Assembly: GCA_030066555.1 (NCBI GenBank)
Contig: JASJBK010000048.1
Location: forward strand, 1 to 47,916
Direction of reading: 5' to 3'
Length of the DNA: 47,916 bases
Source: Halieaceae bacterium
GTDB taxonomy: Bacteria; Pseudomonadota; Gammaproteobacteria; Pseudomonadales; Halieaceae
Both the position numbers and the translations under genes were made by a program. The notes under the pieces were generated by a model. It did not search any database. It was not told where the DNA came from and saw nothing but the letters and a program-made list of their open reading frames with translations. This document shows, in pieces, positions 28,178-36,687 of the stretch (position 1 is its first letter; each line of letters opens with the position of its first letter).

Positions 28178-29632
28178 CTAGCTCGAGCTGCGCAGCAGCC
28201 GGTCGACGATGCGCTCGAGGTGCGCGAGGCTGGAGCATTCCGCCGCGAAGTGACAGCAGGACAGGTAGCGGGGCATCTCTGAATCACCGCTGCCCCAGAG
28301 GGCTCGCGACTCCGGATTGAGCCAGATAACCTGCTTGGACCGCGCGTAAATACTCTGCATCACGTCCAGCCGCGGATCGCCGTTGTTATTGCGGGCGTCG
28401 CCAAGGATGATCACGGTGGTCTGGCTGTCTATATCGTCCAGTGCCAGCTGGGCAAAGTCCATCAGGCTCGAGCCGTAGTCGGTGGCACCGCCGTATTGCC
28501 AGTTCACCAGCTCCACCGCCTTCTCTACCGGGTGCTGGGCGAACAGCTCGCTGACTTCCCCCAGCCTGTTGGAAAAGGCAAAACTGCGTACCCGCGGCAG
28601 CACATCGTACAGGCTGTACAGGAACATCAGCAGGAACTTGGCGTAGGCTGACACCGAGCCGGATACGTCACAAACCGCGAGAATCTGTGGGCGCTGTTTC
28701 CTGGTGGACTTCCAGTACAGGTTGAACAGCACGCCCTCGTGGGCGATGCCCCGGCGCAGGGTCTTGGCCATGTTGAGCTGGCCGCGCCTGGTCACCTTGC
28801 GGCGCCGGGAATGGCGGGCGGCAAGTTTCTTGGCCATACGCCGCACCAGGTCCTGCACCCGGTGCAGGTAGTGATGCTCGATATGGCTCAGTCGCGCCTT
28901 GGCCAGCACATCGTCCATGAACTGCTGGTTGCGACCCTGGGCGTGTAGCAGGTATTCCCGTTCGACGTGGTCGCGCACCAGTTCCCGCAGCCGGTCCCGG
29001 TAGGCCTGGAGTTCGCCGAGGGCGTCGCTGCCACGGTTTTCCAGGTCGACGATAGCGCTGCGAATATGGCCTTCCCCGAGTTCGTCGAGGATGCGGCGGG
29101 TGAACTGTCCCTTCTGGGTAAACATCTGGATTTCCGGCAGCCCGACTTCGTCACCCGCCCGGGCGATAGCAAGCGCCAGCGAATTGCGGTCGTCGTTGCG
29201 CAGCATGTCCATGATAGGGACGTCGAGCTGGCCGGCGAGCTCTGGGTCGCTGGCCAGCTCCCCCTCCAGGTCGAGCCGGGTCTCGCCACCTTCGCCATCC
29301 ATTTGCTGCAGCGCAGCCTCAGCCGCTTCCAGGTCTGAGGGATCGGCTCCCGGTATGGCGTCTCCCTCGCTGTTGGCGGCCTCCTGCTCGGTGGCCTGTT
29401 GCTCAATTGATTGGGGCAGCTGGTAGGAAAAGAACTGGTCGAAGCAGCGATGGAAGGTGACCTTCTCTTCGGCGGTCTTCGCCAACGCCAGCGACAGGCC
29501 GCTGCGCAGCTGGTTGCGGTCCTCGTAGCCCAGGGTGGTGATCACCTGCACCGCATCGAGGGTTTCAGCGGGAGAGATGCGCACATCATGGCTGCGCAGC
29601 ACGTTGATGAAACTGACCAGCCGGGAGGGCAT
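28178..29632 (-). CDS. VWA-domain (CoxE-like) protein
   Basis: MIDAS AVCDVSGSVSAYAKFLL in the C-terminal VWA domain; adjacent to MoxR ATPase. Confidence 0.85.
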   Translation of the reverse strand: MPSRLVSFINVLRSHDVRISPAETLDAVQVITTLGYEDRNQLRSGLSLALAKTAEEKVTFHRCFDQFFSYQLPQSIEQQATEQEAANSEGDAIPGADPSDLEAAEAALQQMDGEGGETRLDLEGELASDPELAGQLDVPIMDMLRNDDRNSLALAIARAGDEVGLPEIQMFTQKGQFTRRILDELGEGHIRSAIVDLENRGSDALGELQAYRDRLRELVRDHVEREYLLHAQGRNQQFMDDVLAKARLSHIEHHYLHRVQDLVRRMAKKLAARHSRRRKVTRRGQLNMAKTLRRGIAHEGVLFNLYWKSTRKQRPQILAVCDVSGSVSAYAKFLLMFLYSLYDVLPRVRSFAFSNRLGEVSELFAQHPVEKAVELVNWQYGGATDYGSSLMDFAQLALDDIDSQTTVIILGDARNNNGDPRLDVMQSIYARSKQVIWLNPESRALWGSGDSEMPRYLSCCHFAAECSSLAHLERIVDRLLRSSS

Positions 29633-29652: not shown

Positions 29653-30609
29653 TCAGGCGCCGCTGGCGACGCCGGACCTGGGTGGATTGAGCAGGCTCCT
29701 GAGTTCCGGCTCGGTGGCCTCGATGTCGTCCTGGAACTTCAGCAGCACATTGAGGGTGCTGCGCACCGTGTCCTCGTCGAGTTGTTCCGCATGCAGGAGC
29801 AGCAGGCTGCGGGCCCAGTCGATGGTCTCGCTGATGGCCGGCGCCTTCTTCAGGTCGAGCTGGCGCAGGGAGTGCACAAAGGCCACGATCTGCTCCCGCA
29901 GGCCCTCGTCTACATCCGGCACCCGGCTGCGTACGATGCGCTCTTCCAGGTCGGTGGTAGGGAAGGGGATATAGAGGTGCAGGCAGCGGCGCTTGAGTGC
30001 GTCGGAAATATCCCGGGTATTGTTACTGGTCAGGAACACAACGGGTGAGCTCTTCGCCTTGACGGTACCGATCTCCGGGATCGATACCTGGTAATCGGAG
30101 AGGATTTCCAGCAGCAGGGATTCGAACTCGTAGTCCGACTTGTCCACTTCGTCGATCAGCAGGATCGAGCCCTCGGATTCATGCATGGCCTTGAGCAGCG
30201 GCCGCGGTTCGAGAAAATCTTCGGAGTAGAAGATGTCGCCGAAGTGATGTAGTCGATCTACGGATTCCGCCAGGCCCTTGGCGCCCTGTAGCAGGTCGCC
30301 GAGCTTTTCCTTCAACACCTGCGTATACAGTAACTGCTTGCCGTACTTCCACTCATACAGCGCCTTGGCCTCGTCCAGGCCCTCGTAGCACTGCAGGCGA
30401 ATCAGCGGCAGCTCCAACAGTTTGGCGGTGGTCTTGGCCAGCTCGGTCTTGCCAACCCCGGGCGGCCCCTCCACCAGGATGGGCTTGCGCAGCTGGCAGG
30501 CCAGGAACACGGCGGTGGCAATCTCGTCACTGCAGATATATCCGTGCTGCTCGAAGCCGGCCTTGATGTCAGCCGCCGAGGCGAGCTGGGGGAAGTCCAG
30601 GGTATTCAC
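29653..30609 (-). CDS. MoxR-family AAA+ ATPase
   Basis: Walker A EGPPGVGKTELAK, Walker B SILLIDEVDKSD, sensor VVFLTSNNTRD. Confidence 0.93.
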   Translation of the reverse strand: MNTLDFPQLASAADIKAGFEQHGYICSDEIATAVFLACQLRKPILVEGPPGVGKTELAKTTAKLLELPLIRLQCYEGLDEAKALYEWKYGKQLLYTQVLKEKLGDLLQGAKGLAESVDRLHHFGDIFYSEDFLEPRPLLKAMHESEGSILLIDEVDKSDYEFESLLLEILSDYQVSIPEIGTVKAKSSPVVFLTSNNTRDISDALKRRCLHLYIPFPTTDLEERIVRSRVPDVDEGLREQIVAFVHSLRQLDLKKAPAISETIDWARSLLLLHAEQLDEDTVRSTLNVLLKFQDDIEATEPELRSLLNPPRSGVASGA

Positions 30610-31626: not shown

Positions 31627-32625
31627 TTATCCCCCAGTGGTGTTCATGAAGCGGACGATGTCGGGTTCCTCGTCCAGGTCGAAATGGTGTTTCTCGGGTT
31701 TGAGGTCCATGGCGGCGACGATCGCCTGCTTGAGGGCCTCGTCGTCAACAGCGGGGTCACGCAGCAGGACGCGCAGGTCCATGCTGTGTTCATTGCCCAG
31801 GCACAGCAGCAGTCGGCCTTCGACGGTGACCCGCACCCGGTTGCAGAGGTGGCAGAAGTTGTGGCTGTGGGGAGAGATGAAACCAACCCGGCTGTCGCTG
31901 CCGGACACCGCCCAGTAGCGCGAGGGGCCGCCGGTCTGCTCGGTGGTGGCCGTGAGCTGGTAGCGGCTGCCGATCACTTCGCGCACCTCGTCGCTGGAGC
32001 AGAAGGTCAGGGCCCGGTCGTGGTCGTCGATCAGGCCCAGCGGCATCTCCTCGATAAACGAGATATCCAGCTCGCGGTCGAGGGCGAAATCCACCAGGTC
32101 GAGAATTTCTTCCTCGTTGCGCCCTTTCATGATCACGGTGTTGAGCTTGATGCGCTCGAATCCGGCAGCGCGTGCGGCGTCGATACCCCTCAGCACCTGC
32201 TGGAGATCACCGGTGCGGGTGATGCGCCGGAATTTGTCGTCGTCGAGACTGTCGAGGCTGATATTGATGCGCCTGACCCCGGCCGCCTGCAGCGGTTCGG
32301 CGTAGCGATCGAGCTGGGAGCCATTGGTGGTAATCACCAGTTCGCGCAGGCTCTCGATGGCGCCCAGCTGCTCCACCAGGTGCATGACATTGTGGCGCAC
32401 CAGCGGTTCGCCGCCCGTGAGGCGGATCTTCTTTACGCCCAGCGCCGCAAAGGCGGCACCCACCCGGTACAACTCCTCGAGGGTGAGCACCTCGGCCCTG
32501 GGTACGAAGGTCATATCCTCAGCCATGCAGTACACGCAGCGGAAATCGCAGCGGTCTGTCACTGACAGGCGAATGTAATCTACGGTGCGGCCAAAGCGGT
32601 CGACCAGGGCAGGTGTTTTGTCCAT
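31627..32625 (-). CDS. moaA: GTP 3',8-cyclase (molybdenum cofactor biosynthesis MoaA)
   Basis: Radical [29 protein letters not shown]-terminal double glycine NTTGG. Confidence 0.96.
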
Positions 32626-32751: not shown

Positions 32752-33426
32752 ATGGCGGGACGGCTGCAAGGCAAGCGCATCCTGATTACCCAGGCCGATG
32801 ATTTCATGGGGCCCACTTTTGCGGACGCTTTCCGGGAGGAAGGCGCCGAAGTCCTGGAAGACCGAACTGATCTCACGGTGCCCGCGGCCGCCGCCGAGGT
32901 GGTTGCTGCGGCCGGCGAAATCGACGTGCTGGTGGCCAACCTGGCGGCGCCCTCGGACGCGGCCTACGCGGTGAAGGTGTCTGACGAGCGCTGGAACCAC
33001 CTGTTCGACGTGATGGTGCACCCGATGCATCGCCTGGTGCGCGCCGCCCTGCCGGCCATGATGGAACGTCGCTCCGGCAAGATCATCGTGGTGGGCAGTG
33101 CCACCGGTCTCAAGGCGGCTCCCGGCACCGCACCCTACAGTGCCGCCCGCAGCGCGCAGGTGGGCTATGTGCGCAGCGTAGGTGTTGAAGCGGCGCGCTT
33201 CAATGTGCAGATCAACCTGATAGCCCAGCACTTCGTGGAGAATCCCGAGTACTTTTCCGAGCAATTCCAGCAGACCGATGCCTTCAAAAAGTTGATGGCA
33301 GAGGTGCCTGCCGGGCGCCTGGCGCGCCCCGAGGAAGACGCCGCCCTGGCGATATTCCTCGCTTCCAGTGAATCCGACTTTTTCGTGGGTCAGGCAATCC
33401 CGTTCTCGGGCGGATGGGCACAGTGA
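32752..33426 (+). CDS. Halohydrin dehalogenase-like protein (SDR superfamily, non-canonical)
   Basis: 224 aa. N-terminus RILITQADDFMGPTFA has T-x4-F-x-G instead of the Rossmann TGxxxGxG; catalytic S116-x12-Y129-x3-R133 (GSATGLKAAPGTAPYSAARSA) in place of YxxxK. Confidence 0.78.
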   Translation: MAGRLQGKRILITQADDFMGPTFADAFREEGAEVLEDRTDLTVPAAAAEVVAAAGEIDVLVANLAAPSDAAYAVKVSDERWNHLFDVMVHPMHRLVRAALPAMMERRSGKIIVVGSATGLKAAPGTAPYSAARSAQVGYVRSVGVEAARFNVQINLIAQHFVENPEYFSEQFQQTDAFKKLMAEVPAGRLARPEEDAALAIFLASSESDFFVGQAIPFSGGWAQ

Positions 33427-34478
33427 GAACTGCGTTTATTGCGCTGGCGCTGCTGCTGGCGGGCCACGCCTGGGCCGATGCCCCGCCGGCAGACTGCGAC
33501 CCGGTGGACGGCATCACCTCGATCTGTGGGCTGGTGGCGCCGGAGGATATCGAGCTGCTGCCCGGCGGACGCTACCTGGTGTTCAGCCAGATGCAGGAGG
33601 GCCTGGGGCTGTCGCTGCTGGACTCTCGCGATGACAGCGTAAGACCGCTGTATCCGCCGGGAGCCACCCAGGCGGAGCCCAGCTGGGGCGACGCTGCCTG
33701 CCCGCCGCGACCGGCAGACCGGATGCTGTTGCACGGGATTCACCTGGCCCGCCGCGCCGACGGTCGCCTACAGGTGCTGGCGGTCAACCACGGCGGCCGT
33801 GAGTCGGTGGAGTTCTTTGAGATTCTCGAGCCCCGCCAGGACCTGCCGGTGGCCTTGTGGCGCGGCTGCGTGCTGACCCCGGAGCCCTTCTTCTTTAACG
33901 ATGTGGTGGGCCTTTCCGACGGTGGCTTCCTGGCCACCAACATGTACGACCGCAATGCCCAGGCCTGGGATGCGATCAGGGCCTTGTTTGGTTACGAGAG
34001 CGGGAATGTACAGCGCTGGAGGCCCAGCTCGGGATTTGAAACTGTGCCCGGCACCGCTGCACGGGTGCCCAACGGCATCGCCATCGCGCCCGATGAGAAG
34101 CACTTCTACCTGAACGCCTACCTTGGCAGCGAAGTGGGCAAGTACAAGCTCGACGGGGGTAACCCGGTGACCGTGCTTTCCATTGCGCGCCCCGACAACT
34201 CTGCCTGGGACAGTCGCGGCCGCCTGCTGGTGGCCAGCCACGACGATAGGCTGCGTGCCATTGTCGACGGAATTCCCGGGAGCGACGGTGGTCCTGTGGA
34301 CCTGCGTTTCAGGATTATTGCCATCGACCCTGAAAGTCACGAGACCGAGGTGGTCCTGGAGCGCGAGGGCGCTCCGATGGGCGGTGGCACGGTGGCGGTC
34401 GATGCGGCGGGGCACCTCTACATCGGCTCCTACGCGGGGGACAGGATCATTAAATTCCCCCTGACGATCGAGCCGTGA
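33423..34478 (+). CDS. Secreted paraoxonase (PON)-family / SMP-30-like six-bladed propeller lactonase-like protein
   Basis: Signal peptide MRTAFIALALLLAGHAWA (GTG start 33423; ATG 33414 also possible). PON-like blocks: APEDIELLPGGRYLVFS, LLHGIHL, LAVNHGGRESVEFFEI, FFNDVVGL, VPNGIAIAPDEKHFYLNAY, RPDNSAWDSRGRLLVASH, APMGGGTVAVDAAGHLYIGSYAGDRI. Confidence 0.78.
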   Translation: MRTAFIALALLLAGHAWADAPPADCDPVDGITSICGLVAPEDIELLPGGRYLVFSQMQEGLGLSLLDSRDDSVRPLYPPGATQAEPSWGDAACPPRPADRMLLHGIHLARRADGRLQVLAVNHGGRESVEFFEILEPRQDLPVALWRGCVLTPEPFFFNDVVGLSDGGFLATNMYDRNAQAWDAIRALFGYESGNVQRWRPSSGFETVPGTAARVPNGIAIAPDEKHFYLNAYLGSEVGKYKLDGGNPVTVLSIARPDNSAWDSRGRLLVASHDDRLRAIVDGIPGSDGGPVDLRFRIIAIDPESHETEVVLEREGAPMGGGTVAVDAAGHLYIGSYAGDRIIKFPLTIEP

Positions 34479-35857
34479 GCACGGGGCCGGTTCGCGCTAT
34501 TGCAATGATTGCCGGCCCGCTGTTGGCGGTGCTGGTGCTGGTGGGCATGTTGCAGGCGGGCTATTCCCGGGAGATCGCCGTCACTGCACTGGTGGCGAGC
34601 TGGTGCGTGGTGTGGTGGATTTTTGAGCCGGTGCCGATTCCCGTCACCTCTCTGCTGCCGCTGGCTATCCTGCCCCTGATGAGCGTGCTGACCCCGGCGG
34701 AGGTGGGCGCGGCGTATGGCAGCCCGCTGATTCTGTTGCTGCTCGGCGGCTTTATCCTGTCCCGCGCCATGGAAACCAGTGGCGCTCACCGACGGGTGGC
34801 GCTGAACATGATGCGCCTGTTTGGTAGCGACAGTGACCGGCGGCTGGTGTTCGGGTTCATGGCGGCGGCGGCGGTGCTGAGCATGTGGATTTCCAATACC
34901 GCTACCACCCTGATGTTACTGCCAGTGTCCATGGCGATTATCGAGCGCGCCCGCGGCGAGGCACTGGCGGTGCCGCTGCTGCTGGGTATGGCCTACGCTG
35001 CCAGCGTTGGCGGCATTGCCACCCCGATCGGAACACCGCCCAACCTGATCTTCATGCAGATCTTCACCGAGACCACCGGGGCCGAGGTGAGCTTCGTGCA
35101 GTGGATCAGTTGGGGCCTGCCGGTTGTGCTGGTGATGGTGCCGCTGATGGGCATCTGGCTGACTCGCAACCTGCGCGGTTCCAGTGAGGTCGACCTGCCG
35201 GAACCTGGCGCCTGGCGGGTAGAAGAACAGCGCGTGATGATTGTGTTCGCGCTGACCGCACTGGCCTGGGTAACACGTACCGAGCCCTTCGGCGGCTGGC
35301 GTGCCTGGCTGGACCTGCCCATGGCCAACGACGCCTCGGTGGCGATGCTGGCGGTGGTGCTGATGTTCATGATCCCCAACGGCAAGGGCGAGCGCCTGCT
35401 GAACTGGGAACAGGCCGTGACTATTCCCTGGGGTGTGTTGATCCTGTTCTCTGGTGGTATCTGCCTGGCCAAGGGTTTCGTGGCCTCTGGCCTTAGCGGC
35501 GTGTTGGGAGAATGGCTGGCCTCGCTCAACTACCTGCCTATCTGGCTGCTGATCGGCATCATCTGCCTGGTGGTGACCTTTATGACCGAGACCACCAGCA
35601 ATGTGGCGACCACTACCCTGCTGATGCCGATTCTCGCAGCCGCTGGTCTGGCGGCTGATATTCCCCCGGAGGTATTGATGGTGCCGGCGGCGATGACCGC
35701 CAGCTGCGCCTTCATGCTGCCGGTGGCCACCGCGCCCAACACGGTGGTCTATGGCAGCGGCAAGATCAGCGTGCAGCGCATGGTGCGGGAGGGCTTTGCC
35801 CTCAATATGCTGGGTGTACTGGTAGTCGCAAGCATCTGTTTCTGGCGGCTTGCGTAA
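34475..35857 (+). CDS. DASS/SLC13 (NadC-type) anion:Na+ symporter family
   Basis: 460-aa polytopic protein; WISNTATTLMLLPV, TPIGTPPNLIF, TETTSNVATTTLLMPILA; GTGA overlap with the preceding gene. Confidence 0.9.
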   Translation: MSTGPVRAIAMIAGPLLAVLVLVGMLQAGYSREIAVTALVASWCVVWWIFEPVPIPVTSLLPLAILPLMSVLTPAEVGAAYGSPLILLLLGGFILSRAMETSGAHRRVALNMMRLFGSDSDRRLVFGFMAAAAVLSMWISNTATTLMLLPVSMAIIERARGEALAVPLLLGMAYAASVGGIATPIGTPPNLIFMQIFTETTGAEVSFVQWISWGLPVVLVMVPLMGIWLTRNLRGSSEVDLPEPGAWRVEEQRVMIVFALTALAWVTRTEPFGGWRAWLDLPMANDASVAMLAVVLMFMIPNGKGERLLNWEQAVTIPWGVLILFSGGICLAKGFVASGLSGVLGEWLASLNYLPIWLLIGIICLVVTFMTETTSNVATTTLLMPILAAAGLAADIPPEVLMVPAAMTASCAFMLPVATAPNTVVYGSGKISVQRMVREGFALNMLGVLVVASICFWRLA

Positions 35858-35889: not shown

Positions 35890-36687
35890 GTGCAAGCCGC
35901 TAAATTCTTCGACCTGTTGTGGTCAGACTTCCTCGATCACGCGCCCAGTGCCGGCGCGATTCACGGCCTGCTCGGCGGCGGTGAGCCGATCGTCAACGAC
36001 CATATCGCGCTGCGCACCTTCGCCACCCCGGTACTCGGGCTCGAAGCGCTGCACCCGCTATTTGCCCGGATGGGATTTACCGTCGGTGACGAATACCGGT
36101 TTGCCGCCAAGAAGTTGAGGGCGCGCTACTATCGGCACCCGCAAGCGGGGATTCCCAAGATTTTCATCAGCGAACTGCTGCTGGATGAGTGCAGCGCACG
36201 GCTGCGCGACATTGTGCTCCGGTTATGTGAGCAGGTGCCTGCCGATGCCCCCGGCAACCCGGGATTCCTGGCCTCGGGTCGGCACTGGGTCCTGGACTTC
36301 GGCACCTACCGGGCGCTGCTGCAGGAAAGCGAGTATGCAGGATGGCTGGCCGCCCACGGCTTCAGGGCCAACCACTTCACTGTCGACGTCAATGCACTGA
36401 GAGGTTTTGGCTCGGTCGCTGCGGTCAACAGGGCGCTCAAGGCGGCAGGTTTCGTGTTGAATACCTCGGGTGGAGAAATCAAGGGATCGCCCTCCGTGCT
36501 GTTGGAGCAATCATCCACCCTGGCCGATCGGGTGAAGGTGGAATTCAGTGACGGTGCGCAGGTCATTCCCGGGTGTTTCTACGAGTTTGCCCGCCGCTAT
36601 CCGCAGGCGGACGGCTCGCTCTACCAGGGTTTCGTGGAGGCCAACGCCGACCGGATCTTCGAGAGCACCAACGCCCTGGCCAGCTGA
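35890..36687 (+). CDS. DUF1338-domain protein (2-oxoadipate dioxygenase/decarboxylase-like fold)
   Basis: VNDHIALRTFATPVLGLEALHPLFARMGFTVGDEYRFAAKKLRARYY..., ANHFTVDVNAL, QVIPGCFYEFARRYP. Confidence 0.75.
   Translation: MQAAKFFDLLWSDFLDHAPSAGAIHGLLGGGEPIVNDHIALRTFATPVLGLEALHPLFARMGFTVGDEYRFAAKKLRARYYRHPQAGIPKIFISELLLDECSARLRDIVLRLCEQVPADAPGNPGFLASGRHWVLDFGTYRALLQESEYAGWLAAHGFRANHFTVDVNALRGFGSVAAVNRALKAAGFVLNTSGGEIKGSPSVLLEQSSTLADRVKVEFSDGAQVIPGCFYEFARRYPQADGSLYQGFVEANADRIFESTNALAS

Follow-up and report, generated by a model that had tools for sequence, protein, structure and literature searches.

The gene at positions 32752–33426 of the 47,916-nucleotide stretch of DNA analysed here (the window; contig C239 in a draft genome of 3.2 Mb) is predicted from its sequence to encode a cofactor-independent B-type halohydrin dehalogenase (HHDH), a reading to which we assign a probability of roughly 0.92. 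On the basis of its matches to HheB and HheD enzymes, a confident structural model and a phylogenetic tree, we regard the protein as a member of an already known kind. An earlier, sequence-only reading had proposed an HHDH from two motifs, and that interpretation was borne out, as sequence, fold and tree all grouped the protein with HheB/HheD and not with NAD(P)-binding short-chain dehydrogenases (SDRs).

Motifs, fold and phylogeny

The gene and its two diagnostic motifs, as defined in PMC4989007 and PMC11976700, are located as follows:

32752..33426, + strand: predicted B-type HHDH gene, 224 aa, ATG start (homology, model, tree)
32788..32811, + strand: HHDH motif 1, T13-Q-A-D-D-F18-M-G20
33097..33150, + strand: HHDH motif 2 with S116, Y129 and R133 (S-x12-Y-x3-R)

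The N-terminus of the 224-aa product, translated from 32752–33426, is ILITQADDFMGPTFA, and an AGGGAG read directly in the sequence a few nucleotides 5' of the ATG is a probable ribosome-binding site. In HHDHs, motif 1 (T-x4-F/Y-x-G) forms the lining of the nucleophile pocket at the place where SDRs have their glycine-rich loop for NAD binding, and motif 2 (S-x12-Y-x3-R) represents the Ser-Tyr-Arg triad (PMC4989007, PMC11976700). The window protein carries T-x4-F/Y-x-G in place of T-G-x3-G-x-G together with S-x12-Y-x3-R, and does not possess the classical SDR combination of a T-G-x3-G-x-G loop and Y-x3-K. Retranslation placed T13-F18-G20 at 32788–32811 and S116-Y129-R133 at 33097–33150, precisely where they had first been noticed. 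The accompanying argument that such a pair is unlikely to arise by chance also held: in a set of 2096 ORFs (≥150 aa) taken from the window and every fetched locus, 98 had the pair at the correct spacing, all of them HHDH-like with a Y-x-x-A-R ending. Not one ORF of the 36 classical-SDR control loci had it; the classical SDR pair was present in 34 ORFs there. Residues T13, G20, S116, Y129 and R133 were invariant across 41 aligned homologues with identities down to 38%. Separately, in the HHDH relative at L084:6001-6681 the Thr of motif 1 is replaced by Ser (SQAxDFMG), a position for which PMC11976700 mentions two natural variants.

A phmmer search of the PDB returned HheB (4zd6, 234 bits), an HheD8 mutant (8xxb, 220 bits) and HheD2 (7b73, 219 bits) as the best matches of the window protein, followed by 6a41 (105 bits) and FabG-type SDRs (~101 bits), and the comparison with characterised Hhe enzymes that had been called for thus came out on the side of the HHDHs. 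The AlphaFold2 model, built as a monomer, had a mean pLDDT of 95.4 and a pTM of 0.92. Its nine top Foldseek matches were all HheB, HheD2 or HheD8 chains (TM 0.95–0.97, identity 49–53%); classical SDRs ranked after these chains, with TM ~0.89 and identity of at most 30%, and the identity to HheG was 23–24%. By phmmer, Foldseek and the tree alike, characterised HHDHs are nearer to the protein than NAD(P)-dependent SDRs are.

General domain libraries gave a less specific picture. The Pfam label of the window protein is adh_short_C2, and in the NCBIfam profile search no model scored above its cut-off, the hits being to SDR-type domains only. Since both libraries see only SDR-type domains, the automatic label would be 'SDR family oxidoreductase', as had been anticipated; HheD2 itself carries this name in the PDB. 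Generic annotation of this type conceals HHDH genes as SDRs.

A maximum-likelihood tree of 102 rows was constructed from the window protein and its relatives, six reference proteins and SDRs from the genome that holds the window. Its HheC and HheA2 rows were confirmed to be identical to PDB chains 1pwx and 1zmo. The proposed phylogeny of HHDHs versus classical SDRs placed the window protein, apart from the SDRs of the genome, in a 25-member clade that includes HheB; the support of 99/99 applies to this clade as a whole and not to its inner order. Subtype B is assigned by this clustering with HheB, the one characterised B-type sequence in the tree. The clade adjoins a larger one of D-like sequences, and HheD2/HheD8 lie apart from the window protein. 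All sampled HHDHs split from the genome's own SDRs with a support of 99/87, a node to be read with caution because the SDR rows as well as HheA2 and HheC are long branches.

Operon and predicted role

The HHDH gene opens an operon of overlapping genes, in which it is followed by an SMP-30-like gene and a DASS symporter. The neighbouring genes are:

31627..32625, − strand: moaA, divergent neighbour (TIGR02666, 380 bits; conserved in the genus and in L031)
33414..34478, + strand: SMP-30/gluconolactonase-like protein with an N-terminal signal-like segment (Pfam SGL, 34.6 bits)
34475..35857, + strand: DASS-family sodium-coupled anion symporter (TIGR00785, 260 bits, cut-off 198.6)

The HHDH gene shares its last 13 nt with the start of the SMP-30-like gene, and the SMP-30-like (SGL) gene its last 4 nt with the start of the symporter gene; moaA and the HHDH are probably functionally unrelated. 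The order HHDH, SMP-30-like gene, symporter is maintained in the genus; in L031 (72% identity) the HHDH–DASS pair is present without the SMP-30-like gene. Among individual loci, the SMP-30-like gene also follows the HHDH in L028-L030, and the symporter lies downstream of it in L030 and L031. A catabolic operon of the window type conserved family-wide was considered and rejected: the HHDH–DASS pair is confined to the genus and L031, and the context differs beyond them. The adjoining symporter suggests that the substrate or product may be an anion, and the symporter and SMP-30-like gene together point to no single substrate. A promoter scan of the operon region found nothing, and terminator matches there were at the level of shuffled sequence. 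The recurrent cluster formed by antisense ORFs that overlap the HHDH gene was judged spurious and set aside.

Further from the operon, a gene for a MadB-like AAA ATPase (29653–30609, − strand; NCBIfam NF047784, 322.6 bits, below the cut-off of 475) adjoins a gene at 28178–29632, and this pair is conserved in L030 and L031. On the 3' side of the symporter, a gene at 35890–36687 (+ strand) matches 2-oxoadipate dioxygenase/decarboxylase (HGLS, 100 bits); this HGLS-type gene was not found in the loci of relatives.

The catalytic activity of the window protein is predicted by homology. Following the published mechanism (PMC4989007), R133 would lower the pKa of Y129, S116 would hold the substrate hydroxyl and Y129 would take its proton, after which the alkoxide would displace the vicinal halide to yield an epoxide. 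The halide would depart into a pocket built from the T13–G20 loop, at the NAD(P) site of other SDRs, and in the reverse direction epoxides could be opened with halide, azide, cyanide or nitrite. In the cell, the enzyme may handle natural halohydrins or epoxides and pass the epoxide on to epoxide hydrolases whose genes lie at other sites of the genome. The genome carries one LEH-type and one EHN-type epoxide hydrolase, both away from the HHDH gene, and beside this gene no epoxide hydrolase or other dehalogenase gene was recognised. For HHDHs in general, natural substrates are not established (PMC4989007, PMC11976700).

Family distribution and association with GST genes

The sequence-only reading had described HHDHs as rare, a statement that proved to be outdated. 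A scan of genome contigs identified HHDH relatives in at least 545 confirmed cases, and in the host family one is present in 24 of 141 genomes (E ≤ 1e-30). The closest named relatives among the matches listed are 'Halieaceae bacterium' MAGs, with 89–92% identity. A 2016 review already listed dozens of HHDHs obtained with the same motifs, later ones being mostly A- or D-type (PMC4989007). The family is common in environmental Pseudomonadota.

The neighbourhoods of these relatives, with genes called by a simple script, revealed a recurrent association with GST genes. A GST gene lies within 1.5 kb of the HHDH in 24 of 80 loci versus none of 36 classical SDR loci (Fisher p 4e-5, ignoring relatedness), the SDR controls all being from the host family and not paired with the HHDH loci by genome; within the host family itself, a GST is in reach (1.5 kb) of only 2 of 18 HHDH loci. 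It directly adjoins the HHDH in 17 of 76 loci, corresponding to 10 parsimony changes on the tree, and is found within four genes in 38 of 76. On the same strand as the HHDH are 34 of these 38 GSTs, versus 283 of 510 for all neighbours. Since GSTs are common (3 to 31 genes per relative genome), chance adjacency would account for about one case in the set. The loci concerned are:

L048, L058, L072, L079, L082, L085, L098, L101, L104: glyoxalase–GST set
L032, L033, L035, L038, L040-L042, L049, L053, L057, L067, L093, L102, L103: other loci with a GST at or near the HHDH

Several arrangements were observed: TauD–GST–HHDH in Rhodobiaceae-type MAGs, a GST immediately upstream of the HHDH (L032, L093, L102, L103), a divergent GST with an HpaB-type monooxygenase (L053, L057, L067), and the order HHDH–glyoxalase–GST in many gammaproteobacteria. 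Examples of the GST and glyoxalase arrangements were confirmed by Pfam, L033 with a GST C-terminal match only. The association, seen in several independent arrangements, suggests that some of the HHDH family may have a role with electrophiles that is linked to glutathione. A title and abstract search of the open-access literature found no paper on an HHDH–GST link, and the recurrent pairing provides a testable lead on what HHDHs do in nature.

These observations bear on the somewhat unlikely alternative that the window gene encodes an enzyme of the HHDH fold whose natural reaction is with another epoxide or electrophile, for example anion opening of a cellular or dietary epoxide, partly glutathione-coupled, with dehalogenation as a side activity. 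The GST frequencies, the independent adjacencies and the glyoxalase–GST pairs are consistent with it, and the 2016 review leaves room for it, stating that other physiological functions cannot be excluded (PMC4989007). However, the window gene has no GST neighbour anywhere in the 47.9 kb of the window, a gene neighbourhood says nothing direct about the reaction, and the characterised HheB of the same clade dehalogenates halohydrins. A broader proposal, prompted by the repeated and independent origin of gene pairs with GSTs and glyoxalases, is that much of the B/D-type family would serve in nature to deal with reactive epoxides or other electrophiles through glutathione-linked chemistry and not to degrade pollutants, the window enzyme being a variant with an anion symporter instead; we consider this doubtful. 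That the protein is a drifted classical NAD(P)-dependent short-chain dehydrogenase with altered motifs is highly improbable, for although generic SDR models match in Pfam and NCBIfam and the Rossmann fold is common to FabG-type enzymes (TM ~0.89), the glycine-rich loop is gone, Lys is replaced by Arg, the length is 224 aa, and the nearest neighbours, like the tree placement, are all on the HHDH side.

Two other arrangements were noted among the relatives. An HpaB-type flavin monooxygenase gene directly follows the HHDH on the same strand in L050, L059, L069, L073, L090 and L100 (Pfam-confirmed for L050), often with a divergent ABC transporter of the branched-chain amino acid type. Three genes upstream of the HHDH, L074:3914-4828 encodes an alpha/beta hydrolase (Pfam Abhydrolase_1) that by eye is haloalkane dehalogenase-like; together with the HHDH it would fit a dihaloalkane-to-epoxide route.

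Comparison with characterised enzymes

As a predicted B-type HHDH, the window protein shares the Ser-Tyr-Arg triad and motif 1 with HheC (1pwx), HheA2 (1zmo) and HheG (5o30), but these are far more distant, HheG at 23–24% identity and HheA2 and HheC on long separate branches, and the C-terminal extension of the HheC type is absent from it. HheD2 (7b73) and HheD8 (8xxb) resemble it more closely, with both motifs, Phe in motif 1, TM 0.95–0.97 and 49–50% identity; unlike the window protein, they group with other D-type relatives in a clade of their own. The nearest counterpart is HheB of Corynebacterium sp. N-1074 (4zd6), which has both motifs, a fold TM of 0.96, 53% identity, membership of the same clade, a similar length (227 versus 224 aa) and the same I-A-Q-H-(F/W) pocket segment. 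The two differ in motif 1, where Phe18 of the window protein corresponds to Tyr in HheB, in their gene neighbours and in their hosts, HheB coming from an enrichment isolate grown on haloalcohols and the window protein from an uncultured gammaproteobacterium of Halieaceae type. The window gene would thus add an uncharacterised B-type enzyme, ~53% identical to HheB, to the small set used in biocatalysis.
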